From Paracoccaceae bacterium (GTDB lineage Bacteria > Pseudomonadota > Alphaproteobacteria > Rhodobacterales > Rhodobacteraceae), in contig JAIXPH010000041.1 in assembly GCA_027486345.1 (NCBI GenBank), forward strand, positions 1 to 64,000: a stretch of 64,000 nt of DNA. Reading direction: 5' to 3'. Positions 9,399-16,253 of the stretch are shown one piece after another (within the stretch, counting starts at the first letter, position 1; every line of letters starts with the position of its first letter). A program made the translations under genes and the position numbers. Below the pieces are notes generated by a model, which searched no databases, was not told where the DNA came from, and saw only the letters and a list, made by a program, of their open reading frames with translations.

Positions 9399-10406
9399 TC
9401 ATGCCTGCCAGTCCTGCGCCACGGTCCGTCCCCGCCCGGCCCGCTTGGCCGCGTAAAGGGCGGCATCGGCCTGCCGCAAGATCGCCTCAGGCGCGGGAAA
9501 GGCCCGCGCGGGCGCGAGGATCAAGCCGCCGCTGGCCCCGATCCGGCAGGCCTGCCCTTCGAACGGGATGGGGCGTGACAGGCGGCGGGTGATGCGGTCG
9601 GCCACCTGCATGGCCCGCGTGGCATCCGCCATGCCCGACAAGAGCACCACGAACTCATCCCCGCCCAGACGGGCGAGTGTATCCCCCGCCCGCGTTTCCT
9701 GCGTCAGCACCCGCGCCACTTCGATCAGCACATGATCGCCCGCCGCATGGCCCAGCGTGTCATTGACCTGCTTGAAGCGGTCGAGATCCAGTTGCAGCAG
9801 GGCAAAGCCCTCTGCCCCGGCGCAATGATCGGCCAGCGCCCCCTCCAGCGCGCGGCGGTTGCGCAGGCCGGTGAGCGGATCGGTCAGCGCCTGTTCCTGC
9901 GCCATCGCCTGCGCCCCCTGCAAGCGACGGTTCAGGCTGCGCAATTCGCCCGAGACGGCGGCATTCGCCTCGATCAGCCACAGCAGATCGACCGTGTGGT
10001 CGGTCGGGCCGAAATCCGCCTCCGTCAGGTCCAGATCGCGCACGGCAGCGGGCAGATCGACGAAGGCCAGCGCCAGAAACAGCGCGCCACCCGGCAAGGG
10101 CAGCGCAAGGCCCCGCATCGGGTGGCGCGGATCGTCCCGCAGGGTCAGTTCGACCGGCCCCCCCAGCGCCAGCAGGGCAAGATCGGCCGGTCGGCGCAGC
10201 GTGAAACCAGTGTCGAACGGCAGGCCGGCGATGGACCCGGCGGCGGCGGCATCCCCGCCGATCAAACGCCGCAGGGTCAGCCCCAGACCACTGATCCGCC
10301 CCTCCGCCGTCAGGGCCACATGCAGCGGCGTCAAGCGGTCCAGCACAGACATCGGGACCAAGGACCGGGGGACCGCAGGGTCAGACGGCGGGAAGGCGAC
10401 GCTCAT
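9399..10406 (-). CDS. diguanylate cyclase with H-NOBA-like sensory domain
   Basis: This 335-residue protein makes cyclic di-GMP from two GTP. Residues ~25-140 resemble the heme-NO-binding-associated (H-NOBA) domain (LHVALTAEGRISGLG, DTGFTLRRP). A helical, coiled-coil-like linker spans ~145-172, and the GGDEF domain spans ~172-333. The active-site loop LGGDEF lies at 247-252. The product-inhibition I-site RAGD is intact at 239-242, five residues upstream, so the enzyme should be active and feedback-controlled. Its start overlaps the stop of the H-NOX-like gene by 4 bases, so the two are co-translated. Partner H-NOX proteins are known to tune such cyclases. Confidence 0.88.
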   Translation of the reverse strand: MSVAFPPSDPAVPRSLVPMSVLDRLTPLHVALTAEGRISGLGLTLRRLIGGDAAAAGSIAGLPFDTGFTLRRPADLALLALGGPVELTLRDDPRHPMRGLALPLPGGALFLALAFVDLPAAVRDLDLTEADFGPTDHTVDLLWLIEANAAVSGELRSLNRRLQGAQAMAQEQALTDPLTGLRNRRALEGALADHCAGAEGFALLQLDLDRFKQVNDTLGHAAGDHVLIEVARVLTQETRAGDTLARLGGDEFVVLLSGMADATRAMQVADRITRRLSRPIPFEGQACRIGASGGLILAPARAFPAPEAILRQADAALYAAKRAGRGRTVAQDWQA

Positions 10407-11017
10407 GCCGGGGCGGCCAAGCGGAAATCTCGAGCCGAGGCGTGCTGGCCGTCCAGCACATCGATCCGCAGGGACGTATCGCCCTCCGCCTCGATCAGCA
10501 CCAGCGCGCCATGGTCATCGGCCATCGCGCGGATCAGACCGACCAGCACCATCGTCACGGGGACGGCCAGAACGGGGGCGGCCAAAACGGGGGCGGCCAG
10601 TCCGTCACCCGGCGTTCCCACCGTCAGGCGAAAACTGTCCGGGGCCAGCGCCTGCACGCGCAGGGACGGCAGGGCCAGATCCGGCACCGCCAGCCGCACC
10701 CGACCCGGCAGGTGATCCAGCGAATGCAGGAAGTCGGCAAAGCCCGCCCCACCAAAGCGCAACAGCCGCCGCACCCCGTCGCGCCTTGGGTGGGAGACGA
10801 GATAGGTGCCCATATCCTCCAGCAGGCTGTCGCGGCTGCGGTTCAATCGCGCCGCCGCGCGGTCCAGCACCGCAGGGCCAAGCGCGGGGTCATAGGTCAG
10901 CATCGCCTCGAACCCCTGCGCGGGCAGGCGCAGATCGTCGGCCACGGCCTGCCAGAAGGCCGCGCCCCAGATGTCGCGCAGAAAGCATTGTATCGCCCTG
11001 AGGATCAGCCCATGCAC
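10403..11017 (-). CDS. H-NOX-like (heme-NO-binding family) protein lacking heme-ligand residues
   Basis: This 204-residue protein has the H-NOX fold signature: a start of VHGLILRAIQCFL, LLEDMGTYLVS and FADFLHSLD. In heme-binding family members the proximal histidine comes four residues after the first Asp-type position of this segment, and a YxSxR motif follows about 25 residues later. Here the aligned positions read D-H-L-P (residues 101-104), placing Pro104 where His is expected, and the YxSxR region reads VGTPG (~133-137). Canonical heme binding is therefore doubtful. A short APVLA repeat (~141-153) follows. I chose the GTG at 11017 because family members start with M-(H/K)-G; a GTG at 11047 is the alternative. 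It is co-translated with the diguanylate cyclase. Confidence 0.8.
   Translation of the reverse strand: MHGLILRAIQCFLRDIWGAAFWQAVADDLRLPAQGFEAMLTYDPALGPAVLDRAAARLNRSRDSLLEDMGTYLVSHPRRDGVRRLLRFGGAGFADFLHSLDHLPGRVRLAVPDLALPSLRVQALAPDSFRLTVGTPGDGLAAPVLAAPVLAVPVTMVLVGLIRAMADDHGALVLIEAEGDTSLRIDVLDGQHASARDFRLAAPA
10557..10601. repeat. 15-bp tandem repeat inside the H-NOX-like gene
   Basis: Three near-identical 15-base units (consensus ACGGGGGCGGCCARA) lie head to tail. They are in frame and add the pentapeptide repeat APVLA to the protein. Confidence 0.85.
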
Positions 11018-11107
11018 CGCCCGCCCCCGTTTGCCAAACCCAGACACGGGGGCCCCCTGACCAGCCCCTGTCAGGACAACCTAGACCCGAAAGGGTTAAG
11101 CAAATGC

Positions 11108-12835
11108 TTACGGCAGCAGGACCAGACCGGTTTCCGGCCCGCCCAGATCAATCCGGTTCACCGGCGCGGGCGTCAGCGCGGGCGGCGCATCCTGAAGCTG
11201 CTTCAAAAACGCCTCGGCCCGATCAAGCTGCGGCAAGGTTCCGGTCAGAGAGCCGACCGTCACAAAGCGCCCCGCACCGTCCTCGCCCAGCGCCAGACCG
11301 GCCAGATCGACCCAGCCGTCCTTGTCGCGCGTCAGGATCAATCCCTCTTCGCCCGGCCAGCGCGGCAGGAAATCCCCCACCACAAAGACACAGCCCGGAC
11401 GCCCTTCGTCAAAGGGGGTGCGGCAGGCCGACAGCCAGCGTTGCAGGCTTTCGTCGGCGATGCCGGTCAGCAAGAGGTCGCGCGTCGCCGCCGCCCCCGG
11501 CGGCTGCAACGGCATCGCGGCAATCAGATCGGCCATGGCCGGCGCGGCCTCGGGCGGTGCGGCGACCTGTCCGGCCAGCCGGTCGGCCAAGCCCGCGTGC
11601 GCGGGGTCTTTGGCCAAGGCCTCCAGACGCGCGCGGGCATCGGCCCCGGCCTTGCCCCAGCCATCCATCGCCGCGATGTCCAGATCCTCGATGGCGGTCA
11701 GCCCGGCCTCATAGCGGGCAAGCTGGTCCCGGGCCGCGATGGTTTCAGACGGGATCACCGCCTGCCACAGCCCGGCCAGCAGCACGGTCAGCAGCGCCAT
11801 CCCCACATTGACCTTTCGGATGCGCGCCATCCAGTGCGAGCCCAGCAGCACCGCTCCGGCATAGGCCAGACCATATGCCAGCCCCAGCCCGGCCAAGACC
11901 GCCACGAACAGACGGTCAGGCGTCCAGCCATACTCCGTCACCCGCAGCCACAGCGCCCAGACCGCCAGCGCGGCGGGCAAGGGCAGGATCAGCGCCATGG
12001 CCTGCGTGGCGCGGTGCATCACCTTGCCAGTGACGGCCTGCCCATCCTCGCGGTCAACAGCCGTCGTCACCAGGGTGGCGGCGGCGGCGGTCATGGCCAA
12101 CAGCGTCGCGGCGGCGGAAAGCCCGCCAAAGCCTGCCATCCCGTTCAGCGGCAACGCCACCAGAAACACCGCCAGCACCAGCAGCACCGGGATCAGAAGC
12201 AGCCGCAGCAGGCGCAAGACCAGCGTGGGCGCCAGCATCCCCGCCATCTCGGCCACCACCGCCAAGGACAGGCCCAAGGCGGCCCCGGTCACCACCCATG
12301 GCACGGGGGCCAGCGAGAGCACGGTTTCGATGAGGTCCAGCCCGACAAGACCGAACAGAAGATGGGACAGGCCAATCAGCGCCCAGACCAGCCCGGTGAA
12401 GATCAGCGCGGCCGTCGTGCGCACGACCAGTGACCAGCTTTCCCGGAACAGGGTGGCGTAATGGCGCCAGCCGGACTCGCCCCCCGCCGCGATCAGAAAG
12501 GGCAAGGGCAGGAAGGCAAGGGCGAAACCCGACAGGATCGGCAGGCCGCTGGCCAGATAATCCGCCACCAGATCGTAGCGCAGCGTCCCCGCCATCACCA
12601 ATCCCGCGACGGCCAGCCCCAGCAGCAGCGCCGACAGGAGCGCCCGGCCAAAGCGCAACGGGCCGACCAGCACCATCAGCGCCCCGGCAAAGACCGCCGC
12701 AAAGACCATGCTGCCAAGGGCCAACCGCTCGGGCCAAAGCTCGGGCGCCACAGCCTCGAACAGACCGTAGAGCCCCGCGCCGCACAGCGCGCCTGTCAGC
12801 GCGAGCGTTCCCCGTCGCCGCATCTGCCGATCCAT
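11108..12835 (-). CDS. DUF4153 family membrane protein
   Basis: This 575-residue protein has about a dozen hydrophobic segments in its first ~370 residues. A soluble C-terminal part (~385-575) follows, rich in Ala and Asp. The layout and the ESGWRHYATLFRESW region match the DUF4153 family, whose biochemical role is not known. GGAGG lies 5 bases before the ATG. It is on the same strand as the H-NOX-like gene, with a gap of about 90 bases, so a shared transcript is possible. Confidence 0.75.
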   Translation of the reverse strand: MDRQMRRRGTLALTGALCGAGLYGLFEAVAPELWPERLALGSMVFAAVFAGALMVLVGPLRFGRALLSALLLGLAVAGLVMAGTLRYDLVADYLASGLPILSGFALAFLPLPFLIAAGGESGWRHYATLFRESWSLVVRTTAALIFTGLVWALIGLSHLLFGLVGLDLIETVLSLAPVPWVVTGAALGLSLAVVAEMAGMLAPTLVLRLLRLLLIPVLLVLAVFLVALPLNGMAGFGGLSAAATLLAMTAAAATLVTTAVDREDGQAVTGKVMHRATQAMALILPLPAALAVWALWLRVTEYGWTPDRLFVAVLAGLGLAYGLAYAGAVLLGSHWMARIRKVNVGMALLTVLLAGLWQAVIPSETIAARDQLARYEAGLTAIEDLDIAAMDGWGKAGADARARLEALAKDPAHAGLADRLAGQVAAPPEAAPAMADLIAAMPLQPPGAAATRDLLLTGIADESLQRWLSACRTPFDEGRPGCVFVVGDFLPRWPGEEGLILTRDKDGWVDLAGLALGEDGAGRFVTVGSLTGTLPQLDRAEAFLKQLQDAPPALTPAPVNRIDLGGPETGLVLLP

Positions 12836-12963: not shown

Positions 12964-13455
12964 ATGCCGCACCCGTTCCCCCTGCCCACCGCCCGGTCAG
13001 CGCGCGCGCCATGGCCCGGCCCGCCGCGCCTTGTGGGGGTGGCCGATCCGGCCCCCGCCCCGCCGCCGATCCCGCCCACGGCCCCGCCGTCAGAACCGAC
13101 GCCAGAACCCCAGCCCGATGCCCCGCCGCCCGGCACATGGCCCGACCCGGGCCCCGATCTTCCGCCCGTCGAAGTGCCGCCCCAGCCTCCCGGCCCGACC
13201 CGGCCTGAAACCCCACCGGAACGCCCCATCCCCGACCTGCCCGAAGAGCGCCCGCCGGTCCACGACCCCGTCCCCGCCGAAGCGCCGACCGAAGTGCCGC
13301 AAACCGATCTGCCGCCGCTTGACATGCCGGGGCAAGAGGTGATGCGGACCCGCCCCCTCCCGCCCACGCGGACGGGTCACCCCACGTCGGTCATGCGCAG
13401 ACGCTCAATGGCCGACACGGCGGTCCGCGCCAGTTGGGACAAGGTCGCTTCCTGA
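12964..13455 (+). CDS. proline-rich hypothetical protein
   Basis: A frame of 163 residues begins at an ATG with AGAGG 6 bases upstream. Residues ~25-120 are dominated by Pro, Glu, Asp and Ala (PAPAPPPIPPTAPPSE and similar), which suggests an extended, acidic linker-like chain. The C-terminal ~25 residues overlap the 3' end of the opposing GAF gene by 79 bases. No signal peptide or domain is seen. It may be a real disordered protein or a chance open frame in GC-rich DNA. Confidence 0.35.
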   Translation: MPHPFPLPTARSARAPWPGPPRLVGVADPAPAPPPIPPTAPPSEPTPEPQPDAPPPGTWPDPGPDLPPVEVPPQPPGPTRPETPPERPIPDLPEERPPVHDPVPAEAPTEVPQTDLPPLDMPGQEVMRTRPLPPTRTGHPTSVMRRRSMADTAVRASWDKVAS

Positions 13456-14696: not shown

Positions 14697-16253
14697 TCAG
14701 AAATCCGTTGGCGCGCCGCCCTCTTGCTTGCGGCGGGCGACGAAGCGGCGCAATTCCTCCTTGTGGTCGCCGTTCATCGCGGGCGCCTCGAATTCCGCGA
14801 GGATCTGCTTGTAAAGCTGATGCGCCCGTTCGGCCGTCCAAGTCGATCCGTCCAATTGCCACGCCTCGTAATTGCGCCAATCCGACACGAAGGGCGTATA
14901 GAAGGCGGTGGTGTAGCGGTCCTGCGTGTGCTGGCATCCGAAGTAATGCCCGCCCGGTCCGACCTCCTTGATCGCGTCAAAGGCGATGTCGTCGTCGGTC
15001 GTGGAATAGGTCGCCTCTTCGAAATACCGCTGGATCATTTGCAGCACTTCGCAATCCATGATGAACTTTTCCGGAGAGGCGATCAAACCGCCCTCCAGCC
15101 AGCCCGCCGCGTGATAGACCATGTTGGTGCCCGATTGCACGGCGGCCCAAAGGCTGTTCGAGGTCTCCCACATCGCCTGCCCGTCCGGCACGTTGGCGGC
15201 ACAGACGCCCGAGGAGCGCATGGGCAGGTTGTAGTAGCGCACCAATTGCCCGGTCATCTGCGTCGCGCGCATGTATTCGGGCGTGCCAAAGGCGGGCGCG
15301 CCGGATTTCATGTCAACGTTCGAGGTGAAGGTGCCAATCGCCACGGGGCAGCCCGGCGCGATGTATTGCAGCAGCGCGATGGCCGACAGCGCCTCGGCCA
15401 GGGACAGCGCCACGGCCCCCGCCATGGTCACCGGTGCCATGGCACCGGCAAGGGTGAACGGCGTCACCACGACCGGTTGCCCCCGCCGCGCCAGACGCAT
15501 GGCACCGTCCAGCATCGGATAGTCATGCTTCAGCGGAGAGACCGAGTTGATGTTGGTGTACATGCGCGGCTTGGCGCGGAACTCCTCCTCGGACAGACCG
15601 CCCGCGATGCGGGTCATCTCCATCACATCTTCGACCCGTTCCGCCCCCAGCGAATAGGCGTGCACAACCTTGTCCGTCAGCGTCAGCTTCTCATACAGGC
15701 AATCGAGGTGCCGGACCGACGGGTGGATGTCGATCGGCTCAACGGGATAGCCGCCTGCGATGTGGATGCAGTTGAAATACTGCGTCAGCTTCATGAATTC
15801 CTTGAACGTCTCAAAGTCGCCCGAGCGCTTGCCACGCTCCAGATCCCAGGCGTTGGGCGGGGACGAGACGTTGACGAACACCATGTGCTTGCCACCGATG
15901 ATCAACTCCCGCTCCGGGTTGCGCGGGGTAATGGTGAATTGCGACGGGGCCTTGGCCACCATCTCCATGATGAAGTCCTCGTCGAACTTCACATTGGTGC
16001 CGTCAACCTTGCAGCCCGCCTTTTTCAGGATGGCGACGGCCTCGGGGTTCAGCATCTCGATCCCGAGTTCCTTGAGGATGCGCATCGCCCCACGGTGGAT
16101 GCGCTGCACGCCCTCGGCATCCAGCGGTTCGACCGGGCGGTCCGGGTTGACCGGGATGCGCCACGGCATCTGGTCGATGACGGCCGTTCCGGCACGCTGC
16201 TTGTTGCCAGCACGGCCCCCTGCGCGGCGCTTGCGGCCCGGTTCTTCGGTCAT
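14697..16253 (-). CDS. trimethylamine methyltransferase (MttB) family protein
   Basis: This 518-residue protein belongs to the MttB/COG5598 family, which moves a methyl group from a quaternary or tertiary amine to a corrinoid protein. Family segments include EMVAKAPSQFTITPRNPER, GGKHMVFVNVSSPPN and QYIAPGCPVAIGTFTSNVD. The frame is open from end to end with no in-frame TAG, so it is the non-pyrrolysine type; studied members act on glycine betaine, proline betaine or carnitine-like substrates. A basic tail of ~20 residues (RKRRAGGRAGNK) precedes the domain. GGAGG lies about 8 bases upstream of the ATG. No corrinoid protein or reactivase gene is in the window. Confidence 0.88.
   Translation of the reverse strand: MTEEPGRKRRAGGRAGNKQRAGTAVIDQMPWRIPVNPDRPVEPLDAEGVQRIHRGAMRILKELGIEMLNPEAVAILKKAGCKVDGTNVKFDEDFIMEMVAKAPSQFTITPRNPERELIIGGKHMVFVNVSSPPNAWDLERGKRSGDFETFKEFMKLTQYFNCIHIAGGYPVEPIDIHPSVRHLDCLYEKLTLTDKVVHAYSLGAERVEDVMEMTRIAGGLSEEEFRAKPRMYTNINSVSPLKHDYPMLDGAMRLARRGQPVVVTPFTLAGAMAPVTMAGAVALSLAEALSAIALLQYIAPGCPVAIGTFTSNVDMKSGAPAFGTPEYMRATQMTGQLVRYYNLPMRSSGVCAANVPDGQAMWETSNSLWAAVQSGTNMVYHAAGWLEGGLIASPEKFIMDCEVLQMIQRYFEEATYSTTDDDIAFDAIKEVGPGGHYFGCQHTQDRYTTAFYTPFVSDWRNYEAWQLDGSTWTAERAHQLYKQILAEFEAPAMNGDHKEELRRFVARRKQEGGAPTDF

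Follow-up and report, generated by a model that had tools for sequence, protein, structure and literature searches.

The H-NOX-fold protein encoded in the window (by which we mean the whole stretch of 64,000 nucleotides analysed here) lacks both the proximal heme histidine and the YxSxR heme-propionate motif, its gene is under purifying selection, and it belongs to an already described group of H-NOX proteins, widespread in Rhodobacteraceae, most of which have no such histidine. The explanation that we favour, and consider fairly probable, is that the protein is a heme-free H-NOX subunit which docks on an HNOBA-like domain of the diguanylate cyclase co-translated with it and so restrains c-di-GMP synthesis.

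An H-NOX fold without heme ligand and propionate motif

The H-NOX gene and the features within it are as follows.

10403-11017, minus strand: 204-aa protein of the H-NOX fold, starting with GTG and lacking the proximal heme histidine (translation, PF07700, AlphaFold, PDB matches, dN/dS)
10557-10600, no strand assigned: tandem repeat of a 15-base unit, 2.9 copies, in the H-NOX gene (low pLDDT at 140-146; gap columns in the family alignment)
10607-10621, minus strand: VGTPG, aligned with the YxSxR heme-propionate motif (Nostoc alignment)
10706-10708, minus strand: CCG codon of Pro104, which stands where canonical H-NOX have the proximal heme histidine (alignments to Nostoc H-NOX and to 30 canonical H-NOX; family column)
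10712-10714, minus strand: codon of His102, not conserved (His there in 3/270 family genes, including the window's)

The frame translates into 204 residues with zero internal stops, in agreement with the preliminary description of an intact gene. Its GTG start codon (11015-11017) was picked by homology, and a second open GTG lies 30 nt upstream. HNOB (PF07700) was the sole Pfam match of the protein (E 2.6e-16), which is also the only HNOB match in the genome from which the window comes, and the nearest solved relative by sequence was the Nostoc H-NOX Alr2278 (E 1e-9, phmmer). When the AlphaFold model (pLDDT 91.3, pTM 0.88) was compared with known structures, a comparison that the preliminary description had proposed, the first 47 PDB matches were chains of H-NOX proteins or of soluble guanylate cyclase (sGC), 3m0b and 3nvr among them; the top match was 3tf8 (E 4.5e-11, TM 0.72). 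The HNOB profile and the matches of the model place the protein in the H-NOX family by both sequence and fold. The 15-base repeat is read in frame and encodes an alanine/valine/proline-rich loop at about residues 140-154, which is mostly missing from relatives.

Neither of the two marks of a heme-based gas sensor is present, Pro104 standing for the proximal histidine and VGTPG for YxSxR. In the alignment to Nostoc H-NOX, L-D-H-L-P-G-R-V of the window protein falls on L-D-N-L-H-A-R-V and VGTPG lies opposite YQSTR, both free of gaps in their surroundings. Alignment of 30 canonical H-NOX proteins with the window protein by MAFFT placed His in the Pro104 column in 30/30, and the profile and MAFFT readings of this column were identical in all 270 orthologues sampled from the family. 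Given the gap-free Nostoc alignment, the invariant His of the canonical column and this agreement, no other placement of gaps rescues a histidine, and a frame or gap error as the cause of its absence is ruled out by the translation and the Nostoc, MAFFT and profile alignments. The preliminary description had assigned Pro104 and VGTPG to these two places whilst allowing for homologues in which a histidine might align under different gaps; both assignments were borne out and no such homologue was found.

His102 had been called a poor substitute for the missing ligand, and this judgement stands: the residue is nearly private to the window protein, being found in 3/18 rows of the genus alignment and in 3/270 family genes, the window's own included. 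We reject it as an alternative ligand, as only two of the 249 orthologues without the ligand histidine carry it and one of these is the window protein. Histidine within three residues of position 104 was seen in only 3/249 of these His-less proteins. His98 is present in 12/21 His-bearing and 141/249 His-less members; since it is equally frequent with and without the ligand His it is no replacement, and it too was rejected. A compensating ligand column was sought across the 270 orthologues and none was found.

Distribution, conservation and history of the ligand position

The genus set comprised 19 genomes, 18 of them with an HNOB match, and Pro occupied the ligand position in 18/18 proteins, including one (L013) that is cut short at 140 aa, past the ligand site. 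For the family we used an even sample of 394 Rhodobacteraceae genomes, of which 296 match HNOB and 286 the profile built from the genus proteins (A1). Loci were taken from 275 of these 286 genomes, giving 279 loci; seven fragments without a readable ligand site were set aside, leaving 272, from which a canonical paralogue (L187) and a second view of L173 (L186) were removed to leave 270 genes. The ligand residue in these was P in 194, H in 21, Q in 12, R in 12, N in 8, A in 6, S in 5, G in 4, E in 3, T in 2, and D, K and Y in one each, and His is therefore absent from 249/270 orthologues. YxSxR was found in 0/270. All 21 His-bearing orthologues thus lack YxSxR as well, which is odd considering that one of them, from D. 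shibae, has been reported to be NO-responsive. The control set, 30 canonical Rhodobacteraceae H-NOX proteins (L019-L048, the best HNOB scorers), showed His in 30/30 and YxSxR in 29/30. A second H-NOX, of this canonical kind, is also encoded in some of the Rhodobacteraceae genomes, mostly without a GGDEF frame in the retrieved downstream stretch.

A scan of named genomes, which overlaps the family sample, gave a similar picture among the best 80 of 165 relatives, with P in 54, Q in 9, H in 5, R in 3, N in 3, S in 2, and A, E, D and T in one each; 19 of these 80 match a protein of the family sample exactly over 100 residues, and the other 61 hold three His. The comparison of homologues at P104 and VGTPG that the preliminary description had suggested consequently upholds its reading of the window protein, with Pro in 18/18 of the genus, no ligand His in 249/270 of the family and no YxSxR in any of the 270. 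The missing His is not peculiar to this locus, nor is it a sign of decay.

One may consider that the former pocket still holds heme, or a related tetrapyrrole, through hydrophobic contacts or another ligand in place of the proximal histidine, and that NO is still sensed. This would fit with the intact H-NOX fold, with the 21/270 members that keep His, including the NO-responsive one of D. shibae (PMC7232146, PMC8846402), and with Pro117, which is invariant in 270/270 and aligns with a Pro of Nostoc H-NOX. There is also a structure of H103G Shewanella H-NOX in the Fe(II)CO state (2kil, from its PDB title), showing that the fold can be solved without its own His, which we count against the heme-free reading. 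However, the ligand column holds P, Q, R, N, A, S, G, E, T, D, K or Y in 249/270, the propionate motif is gone throughout, and no compensating column was found among the 270, and we consider retained heme to be unlikely.

Arg87, Pro117 and Gly160 are invariant in 270/270, and His-bearing and His-less members have nearly the same conserved residues elsewhere. The position of the YxSxR Arg is hydrophobic in 165/249 His-less vs 7/21 His-bearing members (Fisher p 0.004, kinship ignored). That many positions are strongly conserved despite the missing heme ligand, together with this shift, would be in keeping with an emptied pocket that holds a different small molecule, now the signal for the cyclase. 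A tree-aware test of the association had only three usable pairs, though, and a more hydrophobic site may equally mean a filled-in core, and we regard a new pocket ligand as unlikely.

Compared with two close relatives, the window H-NOX gene had dN/dS values of 0.128 and 0.157, and these relatives gave 0.189 between them; the cyclase gave 0.167 in one of these pairs, and six pairwise comparisons of four more distant members of the genus gave 0.18-0.43. The window H-NOX gene is under purifying selection. A degenerating remnant might be suspected from the loss of the defining motifs, from the repeat-coded loop that most relatives lack, and from in-frame stops in three family genes (G054, G193 and G288) as well as the short L013; against this stand dN/dS values of 0.13-0.16, a match kept in 286/394 genomes, the near-universal pairing with an intact cyclase and the phenotype of the P. 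denitrificans mutant (PMC5588039). We therefore disfavour this explanation as highly improbable. The preliminary description had left the choice between a heme-free (or differently liganded) regulator and a degenerate one; the first of these is now better supported, by the uniform Pro of the genus, the His-less majority of the family, the selection and the pairing, whereas the degenerate option is unsupported for the window gene.

In the tree, the window group falls in a single clade (267 rows, local support 95) that is separate from canonical H-NOX. At least 16 changes between His and non-His and at least 57 residue changes occurred within the clade, as counted on a weakly resolved tree (24/284 inner branches starred) with the ligand column left in. 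By Fitch parsimony the root of the clade is ambiguous (N, H, P or R) and loss and regain are indistinguishable. The genomes listed in a search for an outgroup within the same order all belonged to Rhodobacteraceae. A sample of 289 genomes from the class contained an HNOB match in 14, ten of them outside Rhodobacteraceae, and these ten have His in the motif as judged by eye (L452 only in a doubtful alignment); no member of the window clade was found outside Rhodobacteraceae in this class sample.

A broader account of these data would be a family-wide conversion of an NO sensor into a cofactor-free subunit, in which the propionate motif may have been lost first and the heme histidine repeatedly thereafter. 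What would have kept the gene under strong selection and beside its cyclase is a different cellular signal, now read by the vacated pocket or by the surface, and the few His-bearing members, commoner among nitrite reducers, would be NO sensors that were either retained or regained. We hold this to be possible but doubtful; if true, switching between heme and no heme could be traced inside one orthologous pair. Cytochrome cd1-type matches of more than 300 bits were present in 9/21 His genomes vs 7/59 Pro genomes (Fisher p 0.004), where the Pro genomes were hand-picked and non-random and the strong cd1 matches may include NirN/NirF relatives. With cd1 and copper nitrite reductases over cut-off taken together, the counts were 11/21 vs 15/59 (p 0.03, or 0.06 if a partial match in G273 is counted). 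A tree-aware test had two usable pairs and decides nothing. The excess of His among genomes with nitrite reductases, with kinship uncontrolled, is a lead.

The cyclase partner and the upstream region

Two further features flank the ligand-less gene.

9399-10406, minus strand: diguanylate cyclase, 335 aa, with a probable HNOBA (PAS-like) N-terminus, long helix 138-173, and GGDEF with an RxxD I-site
11018-11107, minus strand: upstream region containing TTAACC, a CtrA-like half site (minus strand, 11094-11099), about 80 nt upstream of the pair (sequence)

The cyclase gene starts 4 nt inside the H-NOX gene, and its product carries GGDEF with RAGD (RxxD) five residues ahead, just as the preliminary description had it; on these motifs, it is predicted to be an active diguanylate cyclase. 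The arrangement is general in the family. A GGDEF frame starts within about 750 nt downstream in 269/272 loci (counting L186, the second view of L173), and of the three exceptions two lie at contig ends and one is the canonical paralogue L187. In 180/269 there is a start codon that would give a 4-nt overlap, most of the others beginning within a few bases, and the I-site is kept in 260/264 complete cyclases.

The N-terminal region of the cyclase is probably an HNOBA domain. HNOBA (PF07701) was matched by 36/62 relatives at E <= 0.001 (best 2.6e-10) and by 55/62 cyclases at E 1, the window cyclase reaching E 0.15, below threshold. Its model (pLDDT 92.5, pTM 0.72) has a mixed sheet-and-helix N-terminus, the helix at 138-173 and the GGDEF domain; no sGC chain was among its first 50 PDB matches, which are PAS-GGDEF and other diguanylate cyclases. 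Both the E value of 0.15 and the lack of sGC chains among these 50 count against the explanation that we favour. HNOBA follows H-NOX in sGC, where the order is H-NOX, HNOBA, helix and cyclase. If the assignment is right, the gene pair would resemble an sGC split in two, with H-NOX on one protein and HNOBA, helix and cyclase on the other. In P. denitrificans, the N-terminus of DgcA has been termed a domain of unknown function (PMC5588039).

In the heme-free reading that we prefer, the window protein would be the H-NOX of the Rhodobacteraceae hnoX-dgc pair in its majority form, without ligand and propionate motif. The H-NOX fold would be kept without heme and would dock onto the HNOBA-like domain of the cyclase, where it would act as a brake on c-di-GMP synthesis. 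The trigger would no longer be NO on heme; there may be none, in which case the protein would be a constitutive brake set by its expression, or there may be some other signal. The fold, the loss of both heme motifs, the conservation, the pairing and the HNOBA similarity of most cyclases are observations, from which we infer the absence of heme, the binding to the cyclase, the inhibition and the nature of the trigger.

Regarding expression, the sequence TTAACC/GGTTAA, which resembles a half site of the CtrA consensus, is a predicted site in the window. It occurs within 150 nt upstream in 56/268 orthologues vs 12.1 expected (the largest of 50 resamplings being 21), mostly at -60 to -41, whereas full tandem CtrA sites showed no enrichment (1/268 vs 0.66 expected). 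In D. shibae, hnox is reported to be under the CtrA phosphorelay (PMC7232146). We treat the half-site enrichment as a lead.

Directly upstream of the pair lies a DUF4153-like gene (11108-12835, minus strand; E 3.6e-06, just under the curated cut-off), and a relative was found upstream of hnoX by tblastn in 34/104 family loci with at least 600 nt of upstream sequence, the window included. An MttB-family trimethylamine methyltransferase is encoded nearby (14697-16253, minus strand; PF06253, E 2.2e-225), and MTTB is among the abbreviations in the legend of an H-NOX gene-neighbourhood figure (PMC8738867). A strongly proline-rich open frame at 12964-13455 on the plus strand has no Pfam match and may or may not be a gene.

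Comparison with known systems

An H-NOX gene is usually annotated, and described, as encoding an NO sensor. In Rhodobacteraceae, 286/394 genomes match the group profile, and about nine-tenths of the orthologues read (249/270) are without the residue that enables such an interpretation. The His-less group itself has already been described and the window gene is a new member of it. Loss of the histidine was noted for P. denitrificans by Kumar & Spiro 2017 (PMC5588039) and for R. sphaeroides by Iyer 2003, as cited there. Lee-Lopez & Yukl 2022 (PMC8738867) define a very large Group 5 of H-NOX proteins, typified by P. denitrificans Pden_3719, which lies next to dgcA; fewer than 10% have His, most having Pro instead, there are conserved Gly hinges and no conserved Cys, and the authors ask how anything is sensed. 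The proportion agrees with the 21/270 (7.8%) found here. The window protein shows the traits described for Group 5, with its His-poor clade (support 95), GGDEF neighbour and Pro, a match made on the described traits. Cys exceeds 10% in four columns of our alignment, 133 (144/270), 11 (79), 55 (42) and 14 (37), and the window protein has only Cys11, in line with the absence of a conserved Cys in Group 5. We see no substantial difference from Group 5, to which the window protein appears to belong. The group-wide loss of YxSxR, the HNOBA similarity and the place of D. shibae in the His minority were not found in the literature reached, which included few subscription papers.

The nearest experimental support for regulation of the cyclase comes from a mutant of P. 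denitrificans hnoX, whose product is likewise an H-NOX without the His. There, hnoX overlaps the GGDEF gene, the hnoX mutant is partly biofilm-deficient and without BapA, and a dgcAB mutant overproduces both biofilm and BapA (PMC5588039). The authors suggest that H-NOX inhibits DgcA and keep NO as the signal for H-NOX, and we count their reading of the data, with NO acting via H-NOX, against a heme-free protein. A later group did not detect c-di-GMP in P. denitrificans (PMC12582929). A measurement of heme or NO on a His-less member was not found in the literature consulted.

The D. shibae pair Dshi_2815/Dgc1 is orthologous to that of the window, with the same gene order and GGDEF neighbour. 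Its H-NOX, however, keeps the proximal His where the window protein has Pro: the CHARACTERISED relative in D. shibae (locus L159, genome G053) reads LDDLHDRARL, and has CIWHR at the YxSxR place. G053 is taken to be D. shibae on the basis of a 6,000-base stretch of its 152,970-base contig that is 100% identical to the DFL 12 plasmid NC_009956. When NO-bound, D. shibae H-NOX is reported to inhibit Dgc1 (PMC7232146, PMC8846402; originally Bedrunka 2018), and R. capsulatus RCAP_rcc02630 has been named as its homologue (PMC7232146). A protein without YxSxR that is nevertheless reported as NO-responsive suggests that loss of this motif alone need not abolish sensing. Since D. shibae is among the 21/270 with His, though, its NO sensing is not transferable to the window protein or to the rest, and with His missing in about nine-tenths of the group, NO control of c-di-GMP should not be assumed for them.

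Heme-free Vibrio cholerae H-NOX has been proposed as a redox sensor (PMC7108781). It differs from the window protein in that it keeps the His and has a zinc site with several Cys, where Cys11 is the only Cys of the window protein. With this single Cys, a zinc-Cys redox site of the V. cholerae kind is unsupported here.

The same question of what an H-NOX domain does without heme is raised by the alpha subunit of sGC. Its H-NOX domain precedes a PAS-like domain and the cyclase. This pseudo-H-NOX binds no heme and lacks either the ligand (human) or YxSxR (moth) (PMC8196705). It is, however, eukaryotic, fused and part of a guanylate cyclase, whereas the window protein is bacterial, encoded by a separate gene and paired with a diguanylate cyclase; in addition, the sGC alpha pocket is plugged by an N-terminal extension that the window protein does not have (at most 10 extra residues would be gained from the upstream GTG). 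With His, Pro, Gln, Arg, Asn and others at one site, the Rhodobacteraceae pair represents a natural series in which the function of an H-NOX without heme could be approached, alongside that of the sGC alpha subunit.
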